DNA from: Hysterangium stoloniferum
Lineage: Eukaryota; Basidiomycota; Agaricomycetes; Hysterangiales; Hysterangiaceae
Reading direction: 5' to 3'
Length of the DNA: 64,000 bases
Assembly: GCA_015178975.1 (NCBI GenBank)
Contig: WHVD01000154.1
Span: 124,001-188,000 of the forward strand
Positions 6,970-34,060 of the stretch are shown piece after piece; the first letter of the stretch is position 1; the number at the start of each line of letters is the position of its first letter. Under the pieces are notes generated by a model. That model had not been told where the DNA came from. It saw nothing but the letters and a program-made list of their open reading frames with translations, and did not search any database. A program made the position numbers and the translations under genes.

Positions 6970-8746
6970 GGTATTGAGTATGACATACGAACATAATAAG
7001 GAAGTTCCAAAAGTTATAAATAAAGTTGGATGTGCCTTGAAAAGAAAAGTATGGTCACGGGATGATTCCCCAGAGGTATCGAAATGGAAGAAGGACCCGA
7101 ACAAAAAACATTTTGAGGAGACGAGAGAATAATTGATTGTGCACAGGTTGTCAATCGCCAGTGGTCACGGCGACACATCGCTGCTGCATTGATTTCAAAG
7201 TACACTGCTAACTTGCACTTGCTACCTATCGAATGAGAAATTGCCTCTGTAGTATATTGATGGCTAGTGGGTTCTATTTAATAGGCCAGTACTCATGGAG
7301 ATTGCCGTCTTCATTACGGTGTTGTATGCCCGGACGTTTGACACTAGGATGACGCGCATTGTGGGCTGAAACTTGATGTCACAGTCAAGGCTAAGAATTG
7401 TATAAACAGTGCAACTCCTGGTATACAGCCTAGATTTTGAGATCCCAGTTTCCGCAACCGGGATAAGAGTAGCGGCGTAATTCATTGTTCAGAGAATTCA
7501 AATGCCCTCCCAGGCTGACTAAGCCCCACCACATTCGGAAGGCGTTGCAACGCCATGTTTCTCGCAAAGGTTTGATTTCCCTCATGTATCTGCTACTTCC
7601 CCTATATCTACACCTGGGAATTTCTCATTAATTGTCATATCTATGCTTTTATTTGAAGTGAACCGGAAGTCGCTCGCCACTGTAGTTTCATTTGCACTTT
7701 GACATCAACTTTTGCTTCAATTGTTATTTCTGGTGGAATGGTATTTCCCAGTAAACAGGACTTTGTCTAGCTGTTAAATTTATATCATCCTCTTCACATA
7801 CATATACTTATTCCGGGAAGCAAGAAAACTTCTTTTCACCTGACGCTCAATGAGATATATCATGCCAGTCCTCGAGTCGCTCTTGTGCCATCGTATTGTT
7901 TTTCGTCCGCTGGTCATCCCCTCTGTCTAAAGCGGACTTACAGTATTTCACCGCCAGACAACTCTTTCATCTGTTGTCCCTATTGTTTTAATGTCACGGA
8001 AAACTTTAGACAGCACCCGAAAGTGAGCCGTTCCTTTGCACGCGGAATGTCCATACTGCTACAGGTCTTCCCACTGAGTGGCATGCCTTCAGGATGTGTG
8101 CTGTAGGACAATTCCATGGTCATCTGGGACTTTTACGACACCTCAGAAAAGTGGAAAAGCTAGTACGTACCCTCTAGGAGCCTTTATACTACTCAGGCAT
8201 CACGGACATTAGGTGAGAGTGCATCACGAACAGACGACATATCGATCCCATGGTTTGACGTTATGCGAGGGTACGCTTGATATGTATATCGTGACCAGTC
8301 TGTTCAGGTCCGAGTCGTCTGCGCGGCAAAGTTCTAAGTAATTTTCAATTTTATCCCTTTTAAATTTATGCTTATATTTAAATATGCATTAATGCTGAAA
8401 AAAATGTATTTCATCTAAATGCGCGACTATCCAGTGGTAAAAATTCGGGTTTAACTTCAAAAAGCGGGATAACATCATGATTTCAGCTTGTGCAGCTAGG
8501 AGCTACTATGAGAATTTAATAGATGGGACTTCTGAGCTGAGTCAGACAGACTAGAAGATCGGGTCCGACTTCAGCCTTGGGGGAGCGGTTCGTGCCAGTG
8601 AGTATGGATGTCGAATGAAGCATGTAAGGATAAGATAATACATAGAGCGAGTCCTTACATCACGGACTGGTGATTCGTCGTCGGAGCGAGCCTCAGCGCA
8701 AGATGTCTGTCTATCTAAGTGTTGGGAAAATTTGTTGAAATATATA
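6970..8746. other. No gene recognised
   Basis: About 1.8 kb of sequence of ordinary composition. Short ORFs occur on both strands, but none has a motif, splice pattern or promoter I would defend. It is probably intergenic. Confidence 0.4.
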
Positions 8747-8751
8747 GTCCC

Positions 8752-9039
8752 TAAGAAGAGCTCAGTCTCGTATAAGTATAACGGACTAATATAATGTGTA
8801 CCTAAGAAGAGCTATTGTATACAGTAAGCGCATATACTAAGAGAGAAAGGATCGTTCTGTGCTCACCTCAGTCTCGTATAAGTATAACGGACTGAGGTTA
8901 AGCTATGTAGGTTATCCCTTTATATATTCTACATAAAAAAAAGGACCATGTGCTCATATGTGAGACGTGTGGATGAGTGGAGCCTGATCGTGACGACCGA
9001 TCATGTTGTTACCACACCGGTATCACCGTTATTCAGACA
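8752..9039 (-). mobile_element. Solo Copia-type LTR with intron and spliced leader copy
   Basis: The 288-bp unit reads on the minus strand from TGTCTGAATAACGG to CTCTTCTTA and is bracketed by perfect 5-bp duplications GTCCC (8747-8751, 9040-9044). It therefore inserted as an LTR element and later recombined to a solo LTR. A TATA box (TATATAAA, about 8919-8926) lies ~32 nt before the initiator-like CCTCAGT. Exon 1 is 8867-8893 and the intron is 8812-8866 (GTGAGC...CTTACTG...AATAG). Exon 2 is 8803-8811 and the spacer 8788-8802 begins GGT. The 27-nt exon-1 copy joined directly to exon 2 is 8752-8787. Both exon copies are identical. Assignment to Copia is by analogy with the Copia-2 LTR. Confidence 0.85.
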
Positions 9040-9044
9040 GTCCC

Positions 9045-10683
9045 CAAATATGTTGACCCTGCCACATATATGCGGTGCCTTTTGTCTTCAGCAAAATTTG
9101 GCATACATAATGCTGGACTAACGTGAGTATGCTGGGACGACTGTTGCATTTTTCATGATGAACCCCAAACCATTAGTCCAACGCACAGGAGGCGAATGTG
9201 ACACGATATGTTCCAGTGTTTGTCGACGATCTATTTGTTATCGCCAAGGGTAAAGGCAAACAGAACTGCTGGATATTAATACGAGCTATATAGTCGTAAA
9301 ATTAAATGCAAGTTGGTGGTGTCTTCAAGTTATTATTTAGAAATGTGTGGCTGCATCACAGTCACAAAGTCTGTCGTCTAAGCACTCTAGGAACTCAATC
9401 CAGGTGGTGAATGCATTATCGAATGGCAATGAGAAAAAGCGGGCAGTTCGTGATGCAGTAGGTAGTGATTGCCATGGCCTCCGTGTGCGTGATCTTTGTA
9501 AGACAGAGAGTGAGATTGGGATGTGTGTATTATGTCTTGTCCTATAGGTCGATTTGCCCAACGTCAACTCTACCCGTGGGCTATCTTACTGTCAATCCAC
9601 GTCAGCCCCAAGACGCTGAATGCACCGCCCCGTATCCTCCTGAATACTGTCTTACATTCGCTGAGGGTGAAAGCTACACCGCTAAACAAAGACCTATTCT
9701 CTTTACTTCTATGTCCGGTTTCACACTTCCGTCCGGTACCCACAACCCTGACTTCTTCAGGATATGCAGGATACACCCCCGCTGCTTGTGGGTGAGCATA
9801 GTGGGCTCCTAACCTCATCCCTCGTAAACATCTCCAATTTTGTTCCTCCCAACCCTTGGCGTCTAGCCATTCCCGACGCGTCCATTCCTCACGCCAGCTC
9901 CCTCTACGCACGGACCTAATCCCTCCCCAACCACCAACCACCATTATTTTTCGTTTCTTGTGGCCGTTTGTTGTTTATGTTTTGTGCCGAGAAAGCTCTA
10001 CTCTATATGACGATGGCGCGCGGCTTCGGAAAAGCGTGTTGAGGCGCGAGGAGCCTACGAGAGCGGGTACTATGCATATATGCATCTTTGAGGTCTGAGA
10101 TGTTGTGTGGAATGGGGGTATCCAACGAGATTGGTTTGGCATGGGAATTATTTGATTGTGAGCTCAGCCCAACCCTTCTATTCTTTCTTTTTTCCCCTTC
10201 TACGAGACCGGAACTATTATACATGAAAAACTTTCGTGGTTTCAGATACGCAAAATAATGAACTTTCAGGCAGAATTGAGTAGGCAGGTATCTCTCAAAT
10301 AACGTACAAGCTCTAGTGTCGGACCACTTTTACCCCACCCGAAAGGAGCCGTGAAGGAGGCCGAAAAAAGCCAATGATCAAGATATGAGTTTTATGTAAC
10401 TTGCATAACATAATGCGTCGACCGTCGAATGATCGAAGTCAAAGATAATTTCACGACAAATAAGAACAAAACATGGAAAATAAAGAACTTCCTCATTGGT
10501 GACTAAGAAGTGGCTGTTTGTCACATCGATTCCGGGCGCTTCTAAAGGTGTATCAAGTTCGGGGCGGCAATCCCCATCTGTGAACACAGCCACTCGCACG
10601 CACACGAGCGATTCTCAATGAGTTGACAAACTTTCACCTTCAAAATCCTTCACTTATCCCTCGCCTCAATAATGGTTACCTGA
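9045..10683. other. No gene recognised
   Basis: Several ORFs of 60-125 codons overlap on both strands at 9340-10220. None shows a recognisable motif or consistent intron structure, so I leave them uncalled. Confidence 0.35.
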
Positions 10684-13921: not shown

Positions 13922-14245
13922 TATACCGAGCCCTGGGACGATCTGACCAACGCATATAGTTCATTTTTTCACCCTATTTGCGATCATTTAAGTAGGTTCG
14001 CATATCGGATGTTATCGGAGGCTATCACCCTGCGCGGATGGTAACTCTTCCCCGATCCCCACCAGGAGCGACGATGCTCGTTGTACCCATTGGACGGCGA
14101 GATCAAAGTCGACAAATACAAAATGGTCCATGTTTGAGACCAACTCTTGACCGATCGGACAGCAGAACCCATTTAGTTTTGTCTGTCATAGGAATATACT
14201 GGACAAAATACTGCAACACTTATGTTACTGGCAGCATCAGGGCCT
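13922..14245. repeat. Dispersed repeat, copy 2 (CpG-retaining)
   Basis: This is the direct partner of 1619-1930. It keeps CpG where copy 1 has TG or CA (for example gaccaacgcatatag against gaccaatgcatatag), so it is closer to the ancestral sequence. The repeat ends before 14290 and is followed at once by a Copia-type LTR fragment. Confidence 0.75.
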
Positions 14246-14317
14246 TAGCTGCGCTGCCCTACCTGACGAAATGTAATGGATGTTAAGTAGAAGACAAGAT
14301 TTCGAAAGGGTAGAGTC

Positions 14318-14510
14318 TGTTTGAGAAGCTCAGTGAGTGAGTGAGTAAACTTCACTATATATTATAGTACCTGTTTGAGAAGCTACAAGATGTTTAATAA
14401 GTAATAGAAAGATAATAAATGATTGTGCATATACCTCAGTGAGTGAGTGAGTAAACTTCACTGAGGTATATGGCGAAATACTGCGACTTTTATCTACTTT
14501 CTAATTATTT
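14318..14510 (-). mobile_element. Copia-type LTR fragment with intron and spliced leader copy
   Basis: Minus-strand order: a TATA-like GATAAAAG (about 14486-14493), CCTCAGT, exon 1 (14435-14462), intron 14383-14434 (GTATAT...TTGTAG, 52 bp), exon 2 (14372-14382, CTTCTCAAACA), spacer 14357-14371 beginning GGT, then an exact exon 1-exon 2 copy (14318-14356). Exon 1 contains a GAGT microrepeat. The LTR 3' end at 14318 is inferred from the exon-2 end. I could not find the 5' end or a target duplication, and the Helitron coding frame runs up to this sequence, so the LTR or the Helitron is truncated here. Confidence 0.7.
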
Positions 14511-17421
14511 TAGGAGAGTTATTAGGGGAGTAGAAAAGGGGAAATTTAGATACTCGAAGTTTAATATTGTAGCCAAGAGGATGTACTATGTATGACTCCA
14601 CCAAAGCTAAGTGTAATTCCCACACTGTAAGGCGGTGTTCTTCAAACACTGTATTTGGGGTCAACATGGAAAGGGTTTTTGAGGTCACTGTATTTGCAGT
14701 TCTCTTTGACTCCTTCTCTAATAATATTTTAACCCTATTCCAACTTCTTCCCCTTGAAAGTCCCACATACAATTGCCCATGTCCAAACACAGCTGTTCTC
14801 AAATCTAATCCTACTAATTTCAAAGATTGTCCCTGTGACTTGTTAATCGTCATTGCAAATGCCAGTTGTACTGGAAACTGAACCCGATGAAGTTTAAAAG
14901 GGAGTTCATCATCATTTATAATGATTTTAATCCTTGAAATAAATGCCTCTTCCCCGGCACATGGTCCAGTTAAGATCTGCACCAAAAGCAAATGATTTTC
15001 CATTTTCAGTAGTCGCAATTTTGTACCATTGAAAAGTCCCATCTGTGGATCTATATTCCGTAGTAGCATTAAAGGTACTCCTGGCTTCATCTCAAGTCGA
15101 CTTGGTGAAATTCCACCAAAGTTGAGACTATTTAAATATTCCACAGGATAGACTTCTGCCTCCATGTCACCCTCTGCAGTGTCAGCACTGTGGTAGACAC
15201 GACTCACTCCAGGGAACCTATTCAGAAGTTCTGAATTAATTTCTTCCACATCTGAATTCCTAGGACACAGAATAGCATGGTCTAAGAAGTCTCCATCTTG
15301 CCAATCTCTTTGGTCTCCATCCACATGGATGTCTGGATATATCTCAGCAATTAGATCAGACATTTCTGGACCACAGATCATATGAGGAGGGATATCCATT
15401 GTATGATCCAAAGGCAAATCCTTTCCATGGCCTACATCTAAGAGCCACTGAGCAAACTGATCACTGTGTGGATCATGCTGATCAACCTGCATATTCTTTT
15501 TCAAGAAAAGTACCTTGACATGGTTCCAGAGTTGAGATTTTTGAATACATTCCCCAATAATCTGTTCTTTAGAGGCATGTTGTACAACAGGCAAAGTCTG
15601 CTGGAAGTCACCTCCCCAGGCAACAGGAATGCCTCCAAAGGGGAGAGCATCTTTGTCTAATACATCCCTTAGAGTTCTGTCAACTGCCTCATATATGAAA
15701 TGTGACTGCATTGGAACTTCATCCCACATGATGAGGCTTACTTGCTTCATGAGCTCTGCCTTTTCTGAGCCCTTTTTGATGTGACATGAGGAGTCCTTCT
15801 CACAGAGAACAGGAATTGAAAACATGCTATGAGAGGTGCAACCACCTTTGAGAATCATTGATGCAATTCCAGATGAGGCGACACAAAGGACAATGTAGCC
15901 TTTGGCACAACATGCATGTGCAAGAGTATTCCATACAAAGGACTTGCCAGTGCCACCTGGACCATTGACAAAGAACATTTTGCCCTCCTGCTGCTCATCA
16001 ACTGCCTTGATTATAGTGTCAAAAGCAACTTGTTGTTCAGGATTGAACTTTTCAAGATTGGCCTGGGCACTGGCATGTTCATGATCAAGATTATAATTCT
16101 TCTGCTCCCTAATGAGACGATTGCCAATGAACTGATCCCAATTCTCAGTGATTTGTGGCATGGTTGGATAGAGTGAAAGAGACTGTCCAGAATAGTGGAG
16201 GATTTTATCAATCTGATAGAGACCAAAGTCATAAATTGTGTGAGGTGCTGCATTGTCAATGTTATATGTAACCCTCAGGATCCAGTCCAAATCATCACAG
16301 ATAAATTCTTTGAACTCATTCCAGAGTTCTTGGGATTGTGCAGGGGAGGACATGGTCAAAATGATGACAAACAACCTGCCAAGTTGACGGCCAGGCTGTA
16401 TGTGACTGGCTTCTCTAAGGCACATGTTCCACTGGTGGTCATCTTCAAGCAAACCACGTGCAACACAGGCTTGTTGAAATGTGGGATAGGTCTCACCCTG
16501 AAAAGTCCTTAGATTTCCAAATGAGGTAGCACCTTGGATGACAGCGAGCAATGTACAGAGGTGGAATCTTTCACCACTGGCAGCATTGACAAAATGGATG
16601 TGTCCTATGGAAAAACCACTTTGACATGGCTTCCATGAGTTAGTCCTAGCTACAAATGTAAAATACTTGGGAAAATCCATATACAATGTGTCCCTGGCAT
16701 GGTGACCATTGTAGCCAATGAGATCCTTGGAATTAGCTTCAAAATAAGCCATTAGAGTTGTGCCAGCATGCTCTGCCCTTTGTAAAGCCTCAGCAGGACC
16801 TTGATCAGCATCGAAAATGACAGTGTTTTCCCCAGGAAGATGGACACACAGTGCCATTACTGCAGGAACCTGGGTGTAGAGTTCATTGTGCATTAATTGC
16901 CAGACAAACTCATGTGCACTAACATATTGTGCCTCAAGATACTGTTTAATCTCATCTGGTGTCTTTCCAACCTCCATAGTTGTGCGATCAGGGCCTTTGT
17001 AACAGTGTTTATGCATATACTTCATTGATCTATTGGTAAAGACCAACTCAACATTGATATGGCACTCAAAGGTGAGAAGCAGAATAGGAGAGTAAGGAAC
17101 AACATATCTGTTATCATATATAAACTTGGGAGTTTCATAAACCCTCCCATTGTTGGGACGAAGGTAGAATGGATAGCCTTCCTGATTGACAATGGTGGCT
17201 TCACACCAATCCTTTGGGAAGAATTTACCACATGTACCATTGTCCATACAGGCAGCATTTGGATGATGAAGACCACATGGGTGATGGGTCATGAGTTGAC
17301 CTACTAAATTAAATAGTCTGGGATGTGTTTTAGGATCTGGAAAACAGGCAGAAATAATTGAATTGACATCTGCAGGTGTCCTTGGCTTATCCTGCTCCTC
17401 AAACCATATAAGACAGTGCAT
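14494..17421 (-). pseudogene. Helitron Pif1-like helicase (975 codons open)
   Basis: This is the C-terminal helicase half of the Helitron protein, which unwinds DNA during rolling-circle transposition. Visible motifs in order are the end of the HUH site (MHCLIWFEEQ) at the N-terminus, Walker A NGPGGTGKS near residue 490, Walker B LIMWDEVPM, GGDFQQTLPVV, the SF1 motif LAFAMTINKSQGQS, and YVGLSRGRSW near the C-terminus. The frame is open for 975 codons, but it starts inside the nuclease motif because of a frame change at about 17447, so the two halves are separated. The last ~30 residues beyond ELHLALVE look non-native and run into LTR-like sequence. Confidence 0.85.
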
Positions 17422-17446
17422 GTGTGGAAGACCCCGCTTTTGGAAT

Positions 17447-17959
17447 TCAATGATGTGCTACCGTTTTACCAAAGATATGGCCCTCTGTAATCATTTTCAG
17501 CATTTTAGCCTTTTTGATAGCAAAGACATGTGAGACCAAATCAGGGCGATCAGCAGGGGTCTGGCCAGGAAGCAATTCATGGGTGACCTCCTCCCAATTG
17601 GGATTAGCAGTCATGGTGATGAAGCAGCTGGCATTGCCATACTTGCGTGCGATTGCAAAAGAATTTTGCAGAATTTGCCTCATATCCCTTGAACCGCCAG
17701 TAAATGAAGAAGGGAGTATGACCCTCTGACCAATACTATTGGGATTGATATCATCATTTGAAAAAGCATCAACAACCTGGTTGTAGAGTTCTGCACATAT
17801 CCTTGGTTGATTTTCACTCAGAAACTTCAATCTGCTCTGTTCTGTGACTGCCCAGGCATCAACGATATACTGCTGGAATATCTTTTGTGCATAAAAAATG
17901 GTTTTGGCTTCATTTGCTCTAAGAAATAGGCGATAGGCATAATATTCACGTTGGGTCAC
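17447..17959 (-). pseudogene. Helitron Rep nuclease segment
   Basis: This is the core of the Helitron_like_N / Rep domain: TQREYYAYRLF, FQQYIVDAWAVTEQSRLKFL, LPSSFTGGSRDMRQI, FITMTANPNWEE and DRPDLVSHVF follow the usual spacing. It ends at TVAHH and a stop. The next residues (IEFQKRGLPHMHC, the HUH motif) lie in the helicase frame, so a one- or two-base indel at about 17447 separates the domain from its catalytic histidines. Family assignment is secure; function is lost. Confidence 0.8.
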
Positions 17960-19765
17960 CTTACGACTTTTGTCTTCCTCTTCAGCCTGTTCATGCTGCT
18001 ATGCAGCCTGGGGCTGCCACTTGTTATTTGCATAGGGAATGTCCCATGACCAACCATGCTCACCCCTGGGAAAGAGCATGACATAATGAAGGGGTGTACA
18101 AATGGCCTGTCCTTCATGAAATCGATGGAAGGCCCTCCCCCTTCTCTGAACAATAATATCCCTTGGGTCACCCTGACCTGTATCACCATCTCCAGGCACA
18201 ATGACTGCAAGTTCATCACCAGTTGGAAGGTTGTACCATCGGGGATCAGTAAAAGCCTTGTAGCTCAGTCTAACATGTAACCTTGGAGTCTCTGCTTGTG
18301 TTCTCAATCACTCATGTGCCTGGCAATAGAGTGCTATAAAAGGATTATATTGCTCCGTCGTGTCCTGCAAGTCAGAAAAGGTTTGATTGTTTAGATTTTG
18401 ATTTTCCCTGTGATTCTGCCTTATCTGCAATGCATTCCCCAGTGCATCCTCACGTGCCAGTGCAGGATCATGGATGTAAAGCTGAGCATAACTGGGTGAT
18501 ACATCTTCCCTGTATGGGATTAAGGAACCATGCTCATGATACAATCCACCATGTATTTTAAAGACATATGGGCCCTGACCACCTTGCAAGACAGACTCAT
18601 CCAATTGACACCAAGTGATATAAATGCAAATTCATTATTATATGTATGAATATTTTTGCGAAATTCCTTGGCATTGTCTGTATTATCCTCAAGAAGAGAC
18701 TTTAAGGTATGAGGGACTGGTTCAAGTATTGGAAGGATGATCTTTCCTTGCTTGCAACACTTGCCAAACTTTCATGTTGTCTGAGAGCTAGCTGACAGAT
18801 GCTCATCCATCCAGTGTAAAGCTCCACAGTGTGAACACTATATGTTCATATGTCCTACATCATGTCTTGGAAACCTGGCCTCCACAACAGGCTGCTGTCC
18901 AATGGGTAATTGTGCAACAGGAAGTGGAAGTGGAGGGATGGCTGCAGGATCTGGAATGGCTGGGGGTGGGGCATTGACTGCAGGTGGGGCAATAGCTGGG
19001 GGTGGGGCAAGTGGGAAAATGACTGGAGGTGGAGGAATAGCTGGGGGTGGGGCCAACTGTGGCTGTTGCTATGCATTTGCTGCTGGATGAGCAGGTGGAT
19101 GGTGATGCTGTGGTAGTGCCAACTGAAAAATGGGTGCTTGTCCCTGAAGTGGTGGAACTGCATTAATAGGTGGATGACCATGGTGCAGTGGTACAGATGG
19201 ATGACCAAGCTGTGAATGTGGTGCTGACTGTAAAATTGGTGGCTGCAGTTGAGCAGGTTGCTGTAATGGTGGATGATTCTGAATCTGAGCAGCTGCATTT
19301 GCCTGTGCACGATGCCATTCAGCAGGTTGTCGTAATGGTGGCAAAGTAGCTATTGCAGCAGAACCAACTGTAGGCTGGATAGATTGATCTGCAGGTGCTA
19401 ATTGGGCATTTGGGGCCTGTGGTTGAACAGGTACATTTGCTGCTTGACGACCCTGCCCAAGAGGTTGTAATGGTGGCAAATTTGCATACTGATCCCATAA
19501 TGCTGCCATGGCACTACTCCCCACTTGGGGTGCAGGAGGAATCACACCTTGCTGAGGCAACTGTGGTGGTTGTGGAGCAGCCACAAATGGATCATCAGAT
19601 GGACCTGCAACAACAGAGGCATGTGGGAATGGTTGAGGAGGGGGTGGTACATCTTAATGAGCCACAGCTGAATGTCAATGGTGATCAGATGGTGATGTCA
19701 TCTGCAATTGTGCCCTACATCTGTTCCGCTCCTCCTCCCGATCACACTCAGGGGTTCAATCCATA
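17960..19765 (-). pseudogene. Helitron N-terminal regions, fragmented
   Basis: From upstream to downstream: a Pro/Gln/Ala-rich leader (18838-19765); a Cys/His cluster (CGALHWMDEHL); GPYVFKIHGGLYHEHGSL and YAQLYIHDPA (18308-18604); then FTDPRWYNLPTGDELAVIVPG and YVMLFPRGEHGWSWDIPY (17999-18307), all typical of the region before the Helitron Rep. The pieces are separated by stops. Two are TGA in places consistent with an ancestral CGA (near 19755 and 19675), and another is a TAG in the CAG/CAA-rich leader (near 19072). This fits C-to-T decay. Confidence 0.75.
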
Positions 19766-19769
19766 ATAG

Positions 19770-21117
19770 TAGAAGAATACACTCAAGGAAAAAATGCAAG
19801 TGTGATATATCACAAAGAGCACTATATGGCTTATCTGGAACCCAGCTGAGTTCCCACCAATTAAAATACCACACTGGGAGTCAATGAAAATACAAACCAA
19901 AAATCAAGCCAAGGTTGGAACACAAAGCAGCAGCAGCAGCAGACACGGAAAACCTGTAAAAGAGAGGGACAGAGTTGGAATGAATTCAGTTAAAATAAGT
20001 CAAAAAAGCAAAACATAAACCATAAATAATTTTCACAGTGTCAGAGAAGATATCAATACTAACCTAGAAGTGTTTTATACCTTGCAGGGGGAAAGGAAAT
20101 GGCAATAAATCCAAAAAGCCACACAATGGAGGCCAATGACAACTGGATGAATTATTTCTAAGGAATAAATGGTGAAATTAATTACAGGGACAGGACTTAC
20201 CTTCAATACTCTACTTATGCTCACAGGGATACTCACCAAAGCAGTAGAGAGTGCTAGGAAAAAAGAAATCAGACAAATGGATCTAAAATAGCCCAAAAAT
20301 GCAATGAATAAAGCATAAATAATGTAAAACAGTATGAGGAAACACAAAACACACCTGTAATTTATAGAGTAGCCTTCAGACTAAGTATATGAAGATTATG
20401 AATGAGAATAACTGCTGGGAAAGGTGACTTTGACTGAAAATAAATTATTTAATCATTAAAAACAGCAAAACATAAGTAATAATAAGTACAGGCTCACCAC
20501 ACCTTTGATATTGACTGCAGAGTCTAAGAAAGCTTCAGAGAAGATGAACCTCCAATATAAAGGGTACAGGGCCAGTGGATGGCTAGTGGATGGCCAGATT
20601 GTAACTGTAGAATAATATATTTAATTATTAAAAAAGCAAACTTAAATACAATTAAATAGAGGCCTTAACATGCCTTGGTATGGACCCAACTACCTTTATA
20701 AATACTCCAGAGAGTAGCCACTTACAATGTAAAGAGCATGGAGTGGGGAGAGAGAGGGGGGAAGGGAGAAAGCATTGCAGCCTCAAGGCCCTAGTCTTCT
20801 GGCGGCTATGGCTGAAAATGCTCGCGCAGTTTTCTCACGCATCACAGAGTGTCACAAAATATTCCCGTGCTTGCACAAAAGCTCCTGCAGTGTCGAAAAA
20901 GCTCCTGCGAGTGCCCTAGATTGATTCCACGCTGACTAAGGAGGTGACTAAGCTGATGGTACCTTTTACCGGGAGTTTGGGGGCTCCACCCCCTCACAGT
21001 GCCTGAAAACACCCACAGACCCACCATGCTACTTTAACTTATTGGATACAATCTCTAGAACTATCAACAGGAGTGCTTCATTACTAACTTTCGTGCACTC
21101 AGGTTCACCTGGTGTCA
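19770..21117. other. Repeat-rich noncoding DNA upstream of Copia-1
   Basis: AT-rich modules recur at about 150-170 bp spacing (aaaaagcaaaacataa-type cores at ~20000, 20300, 20460 and 20620), suggesting a degraded tandem repeat. A CpG-richer island lies at about 20800-20960. A CAG microsatellite of five units sits at ~19930. No gene is supported. Confidence 0.4.
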
Positions 21118-25375: not shown

Positions 25376-25671
25376 TGTTGGAATACAGCATGACACGTCT
25401 GTGTCACATGGGTGTTTTGGTCCACTATGGTCCACAACTTCCACATACATTTGTGTATGTGATGTCAAAAGCATTATATATGCTGTAAATCTGAGTTAGA
25501 AAGTTTTTTCCTCAGTTCTTGTTTACAACTACGAGACTGAAGTTAGTAGATCTTTATCAAATAATGCACAATAACTGGGTACTGATACTTCTATTAGTAC
25601 TATTGTTATAGGTTAGCCATTATAGAATTCAGTTCTTGTTTACAACTACGAGACTGAGTATTATTGTTATA
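25376..25671 (+). mobile_element. Copia-1 3' LTR with intron and spliced leader copy
   Basis: The 296-bp LTR runs from TGTTGGAATACAGC to TATTGTTATA. It contains a TATA stretch (~25474), CCTCAGT, exon 1 (25514-25541), intron 25542-25597 (GTTAGT...ACTGATAC...ATTAG), exon 2 (25598-25610), spacer 25611-25630 starting GGTTA, and a spliced exon1-exon2 copy (25631-25671) with two mismatches to the upstream exons. Transcription would run left to right. GGTTA matches the first five bases of the element's own primer-binding site. Confidence 0.8.
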
Positions 25672-26334
25672 GCTTCGTATTGCAACAACTACCCCACTAA
25701 ACAACAGTATGTTATTGGAGTGGATATTCACAAAATGGCCACTAAACAAAAGTTGAAGGAGAAGGAGGAGACTCAGGTGTAGGTAAGGGATGTGGAAAGG
25801 GGAAGGGGAAGGCATCAGCAGGGCCATCAAGTGTTAATTTATTATACAAATTACTAACAGTGTAGCTCAAATTAAGAAAAACATGCTCACACCAATGTCA
25901 TGTGACTTTTCCAAATGATGCACTTGGCTAATTAGGAATTGTAGTACAACACTGCAAAGTCATGAAGCACCAACTACCAGAGCTTGCATGCACTATATAT
26001 ATAATCTGCAAAGTGGGAGAAAATTAAATCAAAACACTAGTCTATATGAGGTAGCATGAAAGGCTGTTGTCTAATGCAGCCTTACATTGGCATTGGTCCA
26101 GATGTTGATAGGACCAAACTGTATTCCTCGAGAACGGCAAGTACAATACAAGATGATGACGGTAAGTAAAAACGATGATCTAAAAATGATACTATGTGCG
26201 TCTGTGATAATGGTCGTAAGCCACCAGCGTATAGCATGTGGTACTGTGGCCTCATTATGTATATACAACGGGAGGGTTATAGTTGTCCAATTATGTGTGA
26301 GTATGAAGATGCGCTGAACTAAAACAATTCCTGT
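25672..26334. other. No gene recognised
   Basis: Noncoding sequence following the Copia-1 LTR, with no supported ORF or repeat. Confidence 0.4.
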
Positions 26335-28079: not shown

Positions 28080-28462
28080 TATTACAAATATAGTATCTCA
28101 GTCGACACGAAGATTGTAAATCGACTGATATAAAAGATCGAACCTATTACAAATATAGTATCTACCACACAATCGTTAGCATGCTAGTGCGTGAAAGAAA
28201 AGAAACATATTTAGTAACGTACCTCAGTCGACACGAAGATTGTAAATCGACTGAGGAACATACATTGGTAGTGCTCGTATTTATGTGGATGCGAACAATG
28301 AATCCCATGGCACAAAAGAGACGGTAGGACAATGGGATTGTAACAATAGGAAACGGACAAAAAGAAATATTTACGGTTCGTGGTCAAAGTGTTATTGTTG
28401 TTTGTGACATCGTGTTTATCCTCGTGTTTATTCAGGGCATGCGTAAGACACAGTTCATAACA
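28080..28462 (-). repeat. Copia-2 3' LTR
   Basis: Minus-strand order: TGTTATGAAC start at 28462, TATA-like ATAAATA, CCTCAGT, exon 1 (28223-28252), intron 28162-28222, exon 2 (28145-28161), spacer 28127-28144 (GGTT...), spliced exon1 (28097-28126) joined to exon2 (28080-28096), which is the LTR end. The polyprotein stop codon lies in its first 8 bases. Confidence 0.9.
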
Positions 28463-31400
28463 CTCCCCCTGGCTGAGCATGCCCTTCAGGATTACATAGG
28501 CGGAGACCGATGCATTGTTTAATATGTGTTGTGCGGGGAAGTGGTTTGGTGAACATATCTGCAAGGTTGTCAATGGATGCGACGTGTTTGACTTGGATGT
28601 CGCCATCACTAACTCGCTCGCGAATGTAGTGGTACCGTATGTCAATATGCTTAACGCGGTTGTTATGTTTAGCATTTTTCGTTAGGGATACTGCGCCTGC
28701 ATTATCATTCCACAAGAGTGCAGGTGGTGGCTGTGGATACCCTACTTCTTCCATTGCTGAATACATCCATAAAATTTGTTTCATTGCCCTGGTAAGCGCC
28801 ATGTATTCGGCCTCTGTAGTTGAAAGGGCAACAGTTGGTTGATACTGAGTTCCCCATGCCGTTGGGCCACCTGCCTGAATGAAAACATGTCCTGAGCATG
28901 AGCGCCGGTTGTCAAGGTCCCCACCATAATCGGCATCTACGTAACCTATTGGTTTGAGGTCTCTGTGTTTTCCACCATATGTTATTTTGTATTCGAGGGT
29001 ACCTTTTATATACCGTAGTACATGCGTGAGGGCATTCCAGTGAGCAGGGCCTGGGTTGGATGCATATTTGCTGAGTGTAGATATACTGTAAGATAAATCT
29101 GGTTGTGTTGCTATCTGAGCATACATAATAGACCCCAGTAGTTCCCGGTAAGGTTTATTGGCCATAAACGAACGATCTTCTTGTGTTTTTGGTCCCATAT
29201 CCTGCGTGAGTACGACACCTGGAGGTAGTGGTGTTCCCCGTGGATTACAATTGGCCATTCCGAATCTGTCAAGAATTCGCTCCAGATATGCCTGTTGTGA
29301 GATGCTAATAGTTCCCATCATTCTATCCCTGTCAATGCGTATTCCCAAGACCAAATTGGCGTCTCCCAAGTCCTTTGTTTTGTAGGTCCATCCTAGTTCC
29401 TCTTTTGCATGCTCAGCCTCCTCTTTGGAGGATGAGACTCCGGTTGTGTCATCTGTGTAGGTGCTTGTTATCGTGATGTTGCCATTTGCATGTCGCGATC
29501 GTACTGCTGGGTCTGCCATAGATCTGTAGTATCCTAATTCACCCATTTCTGTATTCAATGCCTCAGCCCAATTGTATGCACCGTCCATTGTCCCATATAA
29601 AGTTTTGTTAAGACGCCCCACTTTACCCTCAACTTTTGCACCATCTGGGAGCTCGATATATGTGATCGTTTGTGGGTGTGAATTGAGATACGCAGCGACG
29701 TAGTCTATCTGCCATGCTTCCATGTCTCGGGCAGCAGCGATTGCAAGATTCATGCGAAGGGATTCATAGCGGACAACTGATGCATATGTCTCGAAGAAGT
29801 CGATGCCAGGAATTTGAGTGAAGCCTTTTGCCACCAGGCGGGCCTTGCGTGCTACTAGATTTCCATCTGCGTTATACTTGTTAGCAAATGTCCATCGGGT
29901 TTTCATCAAACGAACATCAGCTGGGGGTTCAATAACCTCCCATACGTCACGTTCCTTCATCATATCCAGTTCTTTGGCGATTGGACCGGCCCAGATATCG
30001 GGACGTGTCATTGCTTCAGCATATGAGTTGGGAAGCCAGTAGTTGCTTGGGTCTGGAAGCTCGTCTGTGGTAGTGGCGAAGATTCTAACACTGTTGATAT
30101 TGGCCGACGATCCAGTATTCATCGCCCAATCCTCACCTGCCTCCCTCGCTGCATGCTCCATTTGTTCTGACTCTTTCGACTCAAGTATTGCTCGTGTTGG
30201 CACATGATGGCGCATAGACCGACGAGGTAAGGCAGGTTCTGGGGCCACCAGTGAAGGGACGTTTCCATTGGAGTTAGATGCATTCTCGTCGGGGATGGTA
30301 GTTGTGGCGTTTTCTGCCATCAGTGGTGTGGGAAACTCACTTATATCTTCCTGTGATAACAGTGGTATTGTCTTCTGACTGAGTCCCTCCTCGAAGATAA
30401 CATCCCTTGAGCGGATGATCCGCCGCATTTCAGTGTCATATAGTCGGTAGGCATCTCGTCCAAAATATCCGACTAGAAGGCATTTAATTGAGCGGGGTTC
30501 CAGTTTGCTAAGGCCATTTCCAGCCTCAGTTGGAATCTTGGCATACGCGATGCAACCAAATGGTCGGAGATGGGAGACATTGGGTTTTAGGTCATGCCAT
30601 AGTTCGAATGGTGTTACATGCGTGTTTCTGGCCGATGGGACAAGATTCTTTAGGTAGATAACAGTGGACGCAACCTCACTCCACATAGATGGAGGTAAGT
30701 TTGATTCGTGTAATAAGACACGTACTCGTTCAATGATTGTGCGATGTGCTCGTTCGACTACCCCATTAGACTCTGACGAGTGTGCTGTAGTGGTTTCATG
30801 TACAATTCCCTGCTCTGCAAGGAAATTGTCCCAAATCGCATTGCAAAACTCTCCCCCTCCATCAGTACGTATACAACGGACCTTTTGCCCTGTTTGTCTC
30901 TCCGTTAAAGCAAGATTGCGTTTCATGGCTTCTAGGGTAGTTTCAGCCCGCTTGTCTGCCAGGAAGTATCCCTCCATGTAACCTGAGAATCCATCAACAA
31001 TCGGCATCATGTATAGTTTGCCACCAATTGATTCCACACGTGATGGTCCCCACAAGTCGACGTAAATTCGTTCTCCAATCCCCTTTTCACGTTGGTCATT
31101 GGATAAAAAGGGCCGTCGCGTGTGCTTCCCCATGATGCAGTTTTCGCATGTGCCGGGTCTTGGGTTTGTTGTGGTAATGTTTAATCCATTGACGACTTTA
31201 TCCTTATCCATCTGCTCAATAGTCTGGTAAGCAATATGCCCCAGTCGGCGGTGCCAAGTATCGATATCGGTGGGCTTGATATGTGGTTGCGTTGCATATA
31301 TCGTAACAACATTTTTTGCCTTTAATGCGTTGTTGACTTCACTAACTGGTACATTAGTATTTTGCATGGTGGGTGTTATGCCGGCCGCAGGATACAGGTC

Positions 31401-32702
31401 GATTTCGTACATGGTCCCCACACCCCGCCCATACATAAATGGCTGGTTGTTTTTGTCAAGGAAAGTAACGCTTCCCCCTCCGAAGATGGAAAAACAACCC
31501 GCCTTATCGAGACGGCCTATGGATATTAGATTATGGGACAGGTCTGGGGTATGTAGTGCCTTTTCGAAAGCAATGTCGACTCTTTTTCTGTTGAATATGA
31601 CTCCCTTCCTCACAGTGCCGGTCCCACATATATTGAAGGTGCCTCCTGTTGTAGCAGTTGTACCGCTCTTCCCATTGAATGATTCATATGTAAAGAAATC
31701 ATTGATATTGACGAAGCAGTGGTCGCTGGCAGCTGAGTCTGCATAAGTGATGACGTGGGGTTTGTATGCTATCGTAGGTTGCGACTGTGTCACGAGGGCG
31801 TAAAAACTTCTATCTTGATTGGCATCGGTGACTGAGCTTGTGGGTACAATTGCGATATTGGCCGTAGATGGTTTTGGCATAGACGACTCAGTCACATTGT
31901 CTCCACTAGTGGCGTTGCCCTTTCTTTTCCACCAAGCCGGGTACTGGCCCTCCATTCCCCCTCCTGGCTTGAAGCATCTGTCGATTGTATGCCCAACCTT
32001 TTTGCATACCGGGTTTGAGCAAACCAGTGAACTTCGTGTTTTAGTGGCAAGGGCCTGAGCTGTTTGGGGTGACGTTTTTCTGTGGCGCGCCAATGTTGCG
32101 TCATGCATGGTGAGTCTGGCAATAACATCTGCAGACGTCTTTTGCTCGTATAATGTACTAACGTAAATTGACCATTCACTCGGCATTGAGCCGAGAATAA
32201 TTGTGCGGAATTCAGGGTCATTGATGTTGCTGCCTTGCCCGGTTGCCTTTTCCCAAGCCTCTCGGAGGGCGGCGAAGTGTGCATGTAAATCCGCTCCATC
32301 AATATGTCGTATCGAACGTAATGCATTCTCGGCATTCAAACGACCAATATCAGAGACGGCATCATAGATTGTAGTGAGTGCCTGCCATGCCGCTGCGGCC
32401 GTCTGGGTTGATTTAATCCTGAAACCAAGAGGGTTCTTGATATTTAGTGCTATTATACTCTTCGCATATGCATCACGCTGCGCCCATTCGTCTGGTGTTG
32501 GTGTCATTGATCCCCAGTAGCTTGTCGTAGTTGGAACTGGTGCGGTCGGCGAGGATGATGGTTTCGCGATAGATCCAGTGAGGTATCCATGCACGCTGCG
32601 AGCATTCGCAGCAGAGAGTATCATTTCCTTCCAAGAATACCACCGCGTTCCGTCAAAGCTTTCATCAGCGGAAAGTTGGAAGAGTGCCGGTTGTGTGGTC
32701 AT
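28455..32702 (-). CDS. Copia-2 Gag-Pol polyprotein, 1,415 aa
   Basis: A single intact frame makes all structural and enzymatic proteins of the element. I start at the ATG at 32702 (MTTQPALFQLS), the first ATG after the 5' LTR leader; the frame is open further upstream without an ATG. Visible parts: a gag domain (1-220); a CCHC-like knuckle (CSNPVCKKVGHTIDRC, 228-243); protease YADSAASDH (D322); the integrase HHCC zone (WHRRLGH ... CENC, 483-522) and core with D549, D614 and E650; reverse transcriptase (VARKARLVAKGFTQIPG; active site YTDD); RNase H (VDADYGGDLDNRRSCSG; LSTTEAEYMAL); and the terminal LADMFTKPLP. The last codons (QPGGVL) overlap the polypurine tract and LTR start, which is usual for Copia. 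There is no frameshift between gag and pol. Confidence 0.95.
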   Translation of the reverse strand: MTTQPALFQLSADESFDGTRWYSWKEMILSAANARSVHGYLTGSIAKPSSSPTAPVPTTTSYWGSMTPTPDEWAQRDAYAKSIIALNIKNPLGFRIKSTQTAAAAWQALTTIYDAVSDIGRLNAENALRSIRHIDGADLHAHFAALREAWEKATGQGSNINDPEFRTIILGSMPSEWSIYVSTLYEQKTSADVIARLTMHDATLARHRKTSPQTAQALATKTRSSLVCSNPVCKKVGHTIDRCFKPGGGMEGQYPAWWKRKGNATSGDNVTESSMPKPSTANIAIVPTSSVTDANQDRSFYALVTQSQPTIAYKPHVITYADSAASDHCFVNINDFFTYESFNGKSGTTATTGGTFNICGTGTVRKGVIFNRKRVDIAFEKALHTPDLSHNLISIGRLDKAGCFSIFGGGSVTFLDKNNQPFMYGRGVGTMYEIDLYPAAGITPTMQNTNVPVSEVNNALKAKNVVTIYATQPHIKPTDIDTWHRRLGHIAYQTIEQMDKDKVVNGLNITTTNPRPGTCENCIMGKHTRRPFLSNDQREKGIGERIYVDLWGPSRVESIGGKLYMMPIVDGFSGYMEGYFLADKRAETTLEAMKRNLALTERQTGQKVRCIRTDGGGEFCNAIWDNFLAEQGIVHETTTAHSSESNGVVERAHRTIIERVRVLLHESNLPPSMWSEVASTVIYLKNLVPSARNTHVTPFELWHDLKPNVSHLRPFGCIAYAKIPTEAGNGLSKLEPRSIKCLLVGYFGRDAYRLYDTEMRRIIRSRDVIFEEGLSQKTIPLLSQEDISEFPTPLMAENATTTIPDENASNSNGNVPSLVAPEPALPRRSMRHHVPTRAILESKESEQMEHAAREAGEDWAMNTGSSANINSVRIFATTTDELPDPSNYWLPNSYAEAMTRPDIWAGPIAKELDMMKERDVWEVIEPPADVRLMKTRWTFANKYNADGNLVARKARLVAKGFTQIPGIDFFETYASVVRYESLRMNLAIAAARDMEAWQIDYVAAYLNSHPQTITYIELPDGAKVEGKVGRLNKTLYGTMDGAYNWAEALNTEMGELGYYRSMADPAVRSRHANGNITITSTYTDDTTGVSSSKEEAEHAKEELGWTYKTKDLGDANLVLGIRIDRDRMMGTISISQQAYLERILDRFGMANCNPRGTPLPPGVVLTQDMGPKTQEDRSFMANKPYRELLGSIMYAQIATQPDLSYSISTLSKYASNPGPAHWNALTHVLRYIKGTLEYKITYGGKHRDLKPIGYVDADYGGDLDNRRSCSGHVFIQAGGPTAWGTQYQPTVALSTTEAEYMALTRAMKQILWMYSAMEEVGYPQPPPALLWNDNAGAVSLTKNAKHNNRVKHIDIRYHYIRERVSDGDIQVKHVASIDNLADMFTKPLPRTTHIKQCIGLRLCNPEGHAQPGGVL

Positions 32703-32940
32703 GTTAAATTGTTTAGAAAAAACTTTAGTTCGGTGTCGATTGTTATTTCGGTTTGACGATCGGTGCAACACACTACTTTTCACTAGGTGTGGCGGCAAAT
32801 GTGGTTCGGGTCAGGTTCGATTCGGGTTCGGGTTCGGGGTCAGCTAATTGATTGTAACTGAGTTGGGGTCAGTGTCGGTTCGGGCTTCAGGAGTTCGGTT
32901 CGAATAATCAAAAGTTTGGTTCGGTTCAGCAACGTGGGTC

Positions 32941-32953
32941 GGGGCCCATAACC
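32941..32953 (-). promoter_or_regulatory. Primer-binding site of Copia-2
   Basis: On the minus strand GGTTATGGGCCCC directly abuts the LTR end. It is complementary to the initiator tRNA-Met anticodon arm, implying a half-tRNA primer as known for Drosophila copia. It is identical to the Copia-1 site at 21118-21130. Confidence 0.75.
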
Positions 32954-33336
32954 TATTACAAATATAGTATCTCAGTCGACACGAAGATTGTAAATCGACT
33001 GATATAAAAGATCGAACCTATTACAAATATAGTATCTACCACACAATCGTTAGCATGCTAGTGCGTGAAAGAAAAGAAACATATTTAGTAACGTACCTCA
33101 GTCGACACGAAGATTGTAAATCGACTGAGGAACATACATTGGTAGTGCTCGTATTTATGTGGATGCGAACAATGAATCCCATGGCACAAAAGAGACGGTA
33201 GGACAATGGGATTGTAACAATAGGAAACGGACAAAAAGAAATATTTACGGTTCATGGTCAAAGTGTTATTGTTGTTTGTGACATCGTGTTTATCCTCGTG
33301 TTTATTCAGGGCATGCGTAAGACACAGTTCATAACA
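32954..33336 (-). repeat. Copia-2 5' LTR with predicted promoter, intron and spliced leader copy
   Basis: The transcript should start near 33126, the A of CCTCAGT, ~31 nt after ATAAATA. Exon 1 is 33097-33126. The intron is 33036-33096 (GTACGT...GCTAAC...GGTAG, 61 bp, branch site ~18 nt before the acceptor). Exon 2 is 33019-33035 and the spacer is 33001-33018 (GGTTCGATC...). The intron-less copy is 32971-33000 joined to 32954-32970. Both exon copies are identical. See the findings for the possible meaning. Confidence 0.85.
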
Positions 33337-34055: not shown

Positions 34056-34060
34056 GGTAG

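Follow-up and report, generated by a model that had tools for sequence, protein, structure and literature searches.

An intron-containing leader and its joined copy in Copia LTRs of Hysterangium stoloniferum: an R repeat that may be built by splicing

How can an LTR keep an intron in its leader and, at its own end, an intron-less copy of the same leader? This question is raised by a Copia element on the minus strand at 28080-33336 of a 64-kb stretch of the H. stoloniferum genome (contig WHVD01000154.1, positions 124,001 to 188,000), in the following called the window. Its 383-nt LTRs are 99.7% identical to each other, have the ends TGTTAT...TAATA and are flanked on both sides by a 5-bp target-site duplication, TACAG. 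In the 5' LTR, a TATA-like box and CCTC (ending at 33127) are followed by exon 1 (E1), intron 1 (I1), exon 2 (E2), a spacer and a second copy of both exons, E1' and E2', joined directly (Table 1). A preliminary description made from the letters had reported this arrangement, down to the exactness of the copy, and it is correct to the base. The match of E2 extends four letters (GGTT) beyond the LTR end, and therefore both E2 and E2' read AATAG/GTT. The presumed start of E1 was placed by TATA spacing and the left limit of the copy.

The long frame of the element contains six copia-type Pfam domains (RVT_2, SH3_retrovirus, Retrotran_gag_2, rve, Pol_BBD and gag_pre-integrs). Their order, Retrotran_gag_2 (71-236), rve (581-678), RVT_2 (955-1195), places integrase before reverse transcriptase. 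With this order, direct LTRs with a short target-site duplication and a primer-binding site after the 5' LTR, the element belongs to Ty1/copia (Pseudoviridae). The closest Copia protein found, from Hypsizygus marmoreus, shares 56% identity. The primer-binding site GGTTATGGGCC sits at the LTR end in several families; we take it, like GGTTATGGGCCCC, to be of the half initiator-Met tRNA type. Pfam detected no GIY-YIG domain in the Copia frame, which speaks against membership of the Penelope-like elements, for which Arkhipova 2003 is reportedly a reference.

Table 1. Leader features of the Copia element and of three further families (window coordinates; grouped parts are given in reading order)
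Feature	Position	Strand	Remarks
5' LTR	32954..33336	-	383 nt; TACAG flanks
3' LTR of the same Copia element	28080..28462	-	same plan as 5' LTR
TATA-like ATAAATA	33152..33158	-	32 nt upstream of the first A in exon 1
Exon 1 (E1), 30 nt	33097..33126	-	presumed transcription start at AGT
Intron 1 (I1), 61 nt	33036..33096	-	GTACGT...GCTAAC...GGTAG; precisely lost in L016/L018
Exon 2 (E2), 17 nt	33019..33035	-	with G 33018 reads AATAG/GT at its end
Spacer, 18 nt	33001..33018	-	GT straight after AG in 13/13 representatives
Exon 1 copy (E1')	32971..33000	-	sequence match to E1
Exon 2 copy (E2')	32954..32970	-	terminates the LTR
Putative intron 2, 65 nt	32953..33017	-	spacer + E1' + E2'
Primer-binding site GGTTATGGGCCCC	32941..32953	-	directly after 5' LTR
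gag-pol open frame, 1451 aa (stop to stop)	28455..32810	-	integrase precedes reverse transcriptase
Second family, solo LTR, 361 nt	8733..9093	-	exact scan and genomic copies
Second family, E1; I1; E2	8893-8867; 8866-8812; 8811-8802	-	
Second family, spacer; E1'; E2'; U5	8801-8788; 8787-8761; 8760-8751; 8750-8733	-	
Third family, LTR, ~282 nt by limits of genomic copies	14281..14562	-	adjoins Helitron
Third family, E1; I1; E2	14462-14435; 14434-14383; 14382-14371	-	
Third family, spacer; E1'; E2'	14370-14357; 14356-14329; 14328-14317	-	
Fourth family, taken as end of a Copia LTR	25514..25687	+	near match before primer-binding site at C79:823781
Fourth family, E1; I1; E2	25514-25541; 25542-25597; 25598-25611	+	
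Fourth family, spacer; E1'; E2'; U5	25612-25630; 25631-25658; 25659-25672; 25673-25687	+	

The plan recurs in the window. Over the 64 kb, an exact scan for GT-AG intervals whose joined flanks recur within 260 nt has four hits, all on the minus strand: 33097 and 28223 in the two LTRs of the Copia element, 14435 and 8867. The same scan finds no place in 100 dinucleotide-shuffled windows. Gypsy-type frames in the window lie between a repeat pair at 34058/41040; neither this pair nor any other of the remaining repeat families gave a match. Ordinary tandem repeats were rejected as a description, for the units differ exactly by a GT-AG interval and the shuffled windows hold no such place. A further, slightly decayed family at 25.5 kb was missed by the exact scans because of one mismatch in E2 and a mutated exon end (ACTGAA). 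Thus, the 8.8-, 14.4- and 25.5-kb families bear out the earlier observation that three other LTR sequences share the plan with unrelated bases, the last with the E2 mismatch. In the 8.8-kb family, many listed genomic copies are paired about 4.9 kb apart, and the same primer-binding site stands after the one 5' copy that was read (L082). The 14.4- and 25.5-kb cases were recognised as LTRs by comparison with genomic relatives and not by a second LTR in the window. In the 14.4-kb family, a genomic 5' LTR (L085) has the plan, with an exact copy, and the primer-binding site.

The 14.4-kb LTR neighbours a Helitron (14494-17998, minus strand; Helitron_like_N and PIF1 domains; matches at 96-98% identity). 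That it is part of this Helitron was rejected, because 34 of the 40 matches listed (the Helitron ones) stop at 14686, because, past the insert, similarity to other loci sets in at about 14263-14271, and because the LTR is found alone elsewhere with its own primer-binding site. A repeat with 81% identity, its two units 12.3 kb apart (1621-1923 and 13924-14222), also lies near this LTR. At 21117 (plus strand), GGTTATGGGCCCC follows another LTR-like end (CCTGGTGTCA), and by eye the preceding 200 nt contain no E1/E1' plan. Searches of the window with Rfam (gathering scores) and ARAGORN found nothing, and an origin of the leader from a spliced-leader or other small RNA was rejected on these results. 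The Helenus and Ajax LTRs, as far as the accessible part of the source describes them, carry tRNA or 5S sequences, unlike the Copia leader copy (PMC10886601).

Do the exon and its stored copy evolve together? From the genomic sequences examined, 31 distinct features were extracted (65 occurrences, as loci overlap); a recognisable copy was required, so that lost copies are uncountable in this set. From these we picked 13 representatives, some of them near relatives. E1, its conserved ends removed, is on average 98.1% identical to its own copy (minimum 90.5%) and 55.0% identical to the copies of other representatives (maximum 90.5%). None of 100,000 shuffles of the copies reaches the observed mean (best shuffle 84.1%), a figure that is not a strict probability. 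For E2 the values are 97.5% and 56.2%; E2 alone is weak evidence, because its maximum match to another representative is 100%. The preliminary description had named independent drift of the two exon copies as the observation that would speak against it. Such drift is not seen: E1 equals its copy exactly in 12 of the 31 features, and the other 19 contribute 27 differences over 880 sites (25 transitions; 18 in CpG context). No feature shows a length change, though E1 spans 24-30 nt among the representatives. This pattern looks like decay after insertion. Gene conversion could likewise keep the copies alike.

Two elements illustrate the range. At L061, the LTRs are 100% identical over 352 nt, the frame has 1434 codons, and E1 equals E1' in both LTRs. 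L006 and L007, regarded as the LTR pair of a single element, show one and the same E1/E1' difference, and therefore their copies were not identical at integration; either a mutation in the 3' LTR of the parent or imperfect renewal would explain this. A census without the copy requirement found a copy downstream of 29 of 62 distinct palindromic signatures on either strand, and the other 33 are mostly reverse-strand readings of the same sites. Among those without a copy in the right orientation are L013 (cut off), L015, L017, L024, L039 and the second feature of L046/L064. The palindromes of L039 (1504, minus strand) and L064 (3818, minus strand), CTCAGTCGTTT...CGACTGAG/GTGAGT, have a good-looking donor, and a second copy was not found in the available sequence. 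They possibly represent another element type or a host leader that shares the start and donor motif.

The limits of the homology nearly coincide with the presumed start site and splice junctions. In the 13 representatives, the copy begins at, or at most 2 letters from, the AGT, which follows a TATA-like word by 30-39 nt (the words were picked by hand and are doubtful in the L030 group). It ends at, or at most 3 letters from, the AG where exon 2 continues with GT. This end is not set by the end of the LTR, because extra U5, in the families that have it, does not prolong the match. In all 13, the predicted spliced leader corresponds to the genomic segment at the LTR end, with at most 2 mismatches in E1 and at most 1 in E2.

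Consensus sequences for introns and branch sites and the sizes of fungal introns are used here as general background. Intron 1 has GT-AG limits and a YTNAY word 14-29 nt before its end in 13 of 13 representatives, and its sequences are on average 58% alike (maximum 92%). We propose that the spacer and the stored copy together form a second intron, newly recognised here. Exon 2 ends AG/GT, with GT directly after AG, in 13/13 representatives with or without extra U5; in L023, an old copy that has the full plan and is not in this set, ATGT stands in place of AGGT. The AG of the putative intron 2 is present in 10 of the 13; for L021, L030 and L033 the sequence came from the 3' LTR of a short-U5 family, which stops at the A. 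In the window element, the first G of the primer-binding site supplies the G of this AG. In the three short-U5 families read at both ends (L001/L002, L061, L063), AG is split between the A of the LTR end and the G of the primer-binding site, and consequently it exists in the 5' LTR and is absent in the 3' LTRs. The sizes are alike, 50-67 nt for intron 1 and 50-65 nt for the putative intron 2. Donor 2 is weak, with G at +5 in 3 of 13 representatives versus 10 of 13 for donor 1. E1' ends in a conserved CTGAG, placed 15-23 nt upstream of the AG, which might serve as branch site; that is a guess, and the word does not fit the usual CTNAY. Removal of both introns yields E1-E2-primer-binding site, which equals E1'-E2'-primer-binding site and leaves the primer-binding site intact.

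Start site and donor are complementary to each other. Eleven of 13 representatives read ACCTCAGT...ACTGAGGT with a freely varying loop, and in the window element (33095-33130) and the 25.5-kb family the complementarity is CCTCAGT...ACTGAGG or less. A hairpin of this kind would hide the donor if the RNA begins upstream of the A. In the RNA folds, added ACCTC and GTA were used for every family.

The reading that we regard as the probable one is a Ty1/copia lineage whose R repeat is built by splicing, in a strong-stop transfer cycle that uses a doubly spliced leader. Transcription would begin at the AGT of exon 1, inside the functional U3, and the 5' leader would lose two short introns, intron 1 and, as intron 2, the spacer with the stored copy. 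The mature 5' end, exon 1-exon 2-(U5)-primer-binding site, would equal the stored copy at the LTR end letter for letter. Minus-strand strong-stop DNA made on this spliced leader could then pair with the stored copy, which would lie near the 3' end of the RNA given the predicted poly(A) position, and its extension would copy the spacer, exon 2, intron 1, exon 1 and finally U3 from the 3' LTR. For this, intron 1 must usually remain unspliced in the 3' LTR. Each cycle would restore both introns and rewrite the stored copy from exon 1 and exon 2. The functional U3 would run to the spacer and hold the promoter, the start site and both introns, and R would be E1'(-E2').

The preliminary description had proposed that the intron-less copy is regenerated from spliced RNA and that first-strand transfer uses a spliced strong-stop DNA. 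Concerted evolution, homology limits and the genome-wide counts given below lend good support to renewal from spliced RNA, with splicing itself deduced from the sequence. The transfer step is retained in the model, and its one-intron form needs correction: the second intron, which had been overlooked, is required for a stable cycle, because a strong-stop DNA from which only intron 1 has been removed keeps spacer and copy. Landing on the stored copy, it would add a repeat and lengthen the LTR in each cycle.

Further information comes from variant forms. Among the 40 matches listed for the Copia family of the window, 30 genomic loci were surveyed. The full plan is present in 19 of them, one being cut off inside E1'. 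L016 and L018 (2/30), regarded as an LTR pair belonging to one element with 4.8 kb between them, have lost intron 1 precisely and kept spacer and copy, with a further short deletion within E2 in L018. In L027 (1/30), an unspliced E1-I1-E2 occupies the copy position, as expected if any reverse-transcribed leader is placed there. Both cases fit a transfer coupled to splicing and also fit gene conversion. L020 and L026 (2/30) hold a single joined copy, and L015, L024 and L025 (3/30) hold E1-intron-E2 without a copy. Neither form (U3-E1-E2 or U3-E1-I1-E2) was accepted as proof of splicing, because recombination between E1 and E1' or between E2 and E2' gives the same products. The remaining loci of the 30 are deletions (L017, L019) and a fragment (L029); L017 was rejected as a spliced form, its deletion being imprecise. 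The single-copy form is not confined to the window family, because another family has one: L035 (minus strand, 992) reads CCTC-E1-E2-U5, ends with AACA and lies beside a full-plan element. At L011/L012, two LTRs of the window family are 1.75 kb apart and GGTTATGGGCAGCC follows the first; this is probably a short non-autonomous relative with the same plan.

How widespread the plan is was assessed in the 111 Mb (554 contigs) of the genome. The exon-1 signature CCTCAGT-N8-36-ACTGAGGT has 1003+1006 matches on the two strands, against 5+5 for the reversed pattern. About 1000 sites are a fair estimate, because the signature is nearly palindromic and one site can be read on both strands. The copy end before the primer-binding site, ACTGAG-N6-36-GGTTATGGGC, occurs 133+132 = 265 times (control 0+0). 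On contig C1, for which both listings are complete, 6 of 9 such places have an exact signature ending 98-103 nt upstream. In contigs C1-C57, 4 of the 55 primer-linked copies among the matches listed stand directly behind CCTCAGT, that is, in the single-copy form. CCTCAGT...E1 followed by a letter other than G gives counts of 259+239; the control is high (94+84), and mutated donors and reverse readings are among the matches. Hence the non-G count does no more than bound single-copy and intron-lost forms, as a minority. Exact AGGTTATGGGCCCC sites number 416+462 (control 0+0), and 8 of 37 on contig C1 appear in the motif list, an undercount since mutated motifs are missed. One other site of the AGGTTATGGGCCCC type that was read directly (L086) shows no plan by eye. 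Other Copia elements seem to share the primer-binding site without the plan, and therefore the plan is not required for Copia replication in this genome.

The main rival holds that the spliced copy arose once from cDNA of a spliced RNA, that unspliced RNA is now the template, and that gene conversion or template switching homogenises the repeats, with the intron serving expression only. We consider this rather unlikely. Unspliced RNA would transmit the whole LTR faithfully, conversion between E1-I1-E2 and E1'-E2' would also give both the intron loss of L016/L018 and the intron in the copy position of L027, and the inherited E1/E1' difference of L006/L007 agrees with such a history. That difference counts against the splicing model, as do L023 without AGGT, the weak donor 2 with its unusual branch-site candidate, the forms with no copy or a single copy, the Copia elements that seem to lack the plan and the need for intron 1 to escape splicing in the 3' LTR. 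Conversion by itself, however, would not keep the two homology limits close to the start site and to AG/GT in 13/13 representatives, and it leaves unexplained the GT after exon 2 and the AG at the copy end in families with and without extra U5.

It is improbable that E1 and E1' are alternative start sites giving the same 5' end, with the spliced RNA used for translation and the unspliced RNA for replication; two start sites are reported for barley BARE. Both copies do start with the same AGT, an AT-rich word like TATAT or AAATAT closes many of the spacers, and BARE uses distinct RNA pools according to the part of the paper available (PMC3735527). By eye, however, no TATA-like word stands at a constant distance before E1' across the representatives, and the CCTC that precedes E1 ends none of 13 spacers. 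More doubtful still, and in our view very improbable, is a tandem duplication in the LTR of which one unit later gained a 61-nt intron-like insertion. Tandem repeats are common in LTRs, and YTNAY words are not unusual in AT-rich sequence. This leaves unaccounted for the GT-AG limits with such a word in 13/13 introns that average only 58% alike, and the empty shuffled windows.

If the splicing model is generalised, a large lineage of LTR retrotransposons would replicate via doubly spliced RNA and yet inherit its introns; we see this as standing about evenly between right and wrong. The 5' R would be assembled by the spliceosome and the 3' R would be a stored genomic copy, with the start and two introns inside the functional U3. 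In short-U5 families, the second 3' splice site would be completed only at the junction of LTR and primer-binding site (or by a chance flanking G), so that 5' and 3' LTRs would be processed differently by design.

In the open-licence literature, no LTR with a stored spliced leader was found, which is weak evidence of absence. Ty1/copia elements with a half-initiator-tRNA primer, of the Drosophila copia type, share pol order, LTR length, 5-bp target-site duplication and the primer-binding site GGTTATGGGCC; the window lineage differs by introns inside the LTR and a stored spliced copy, for which no description was found. HIV-1 and foamy viruses have an unspliced genomic RNA and are not known to store a spliced copy. 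There, a splice donor near the 5' end separates RNA processing in the 5' LTR from that in the 3' LTR and controls the 5' poly(A) site by binding U1 snRNP, as the consulted part of the source states (PMC12789967). Suppression of the 5' poly(A) site in this manner, or intron-dependent export or expression, are guesses at the role of the LTR introns that would, if the model is true, give a testable reason for their presence. Penelope-like elements likewise retain introns despite RNA-mediated movement. They are, however, a different class with pseudo-LTRs, and the sections at hand ascribe retention to their replication mechanism, perhaps an antisense template, and not to regeneration from a 3' LTR (PMC3846280, PMC11167929). 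Ogre, EVADE and Cer1 are LTR elements with functional introns or spliced RNA, which serve a subgenomic RNA or an export protein; the excerpted text makes no mention of a stored spliced LTR copy (PMC12786077). The same excerpt recalls that intron loss through RNA passage was the classical proof of retrotransposition for TyH3 (PMC12786077). Barley BARE is a Copia element that splices its transcripts, as does the window lineage by our reading. According to the portion of that paper seen, BARE uses its spliced RNA solely for Gag and replicates an unspliced RNA, and the authors write that retrotransposons must exclude spliced RNA from replication (PMC3735527). In the window lineage, by contrast, the spliced RNA is the proposed template. 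A lineage that keeps its introns because spliced RNA is the template would, if true, break the BARE-type rule, and about 1000 genomic sites in many families would allow the repeated write-back of a spliceosomal product into DNA to be studied.
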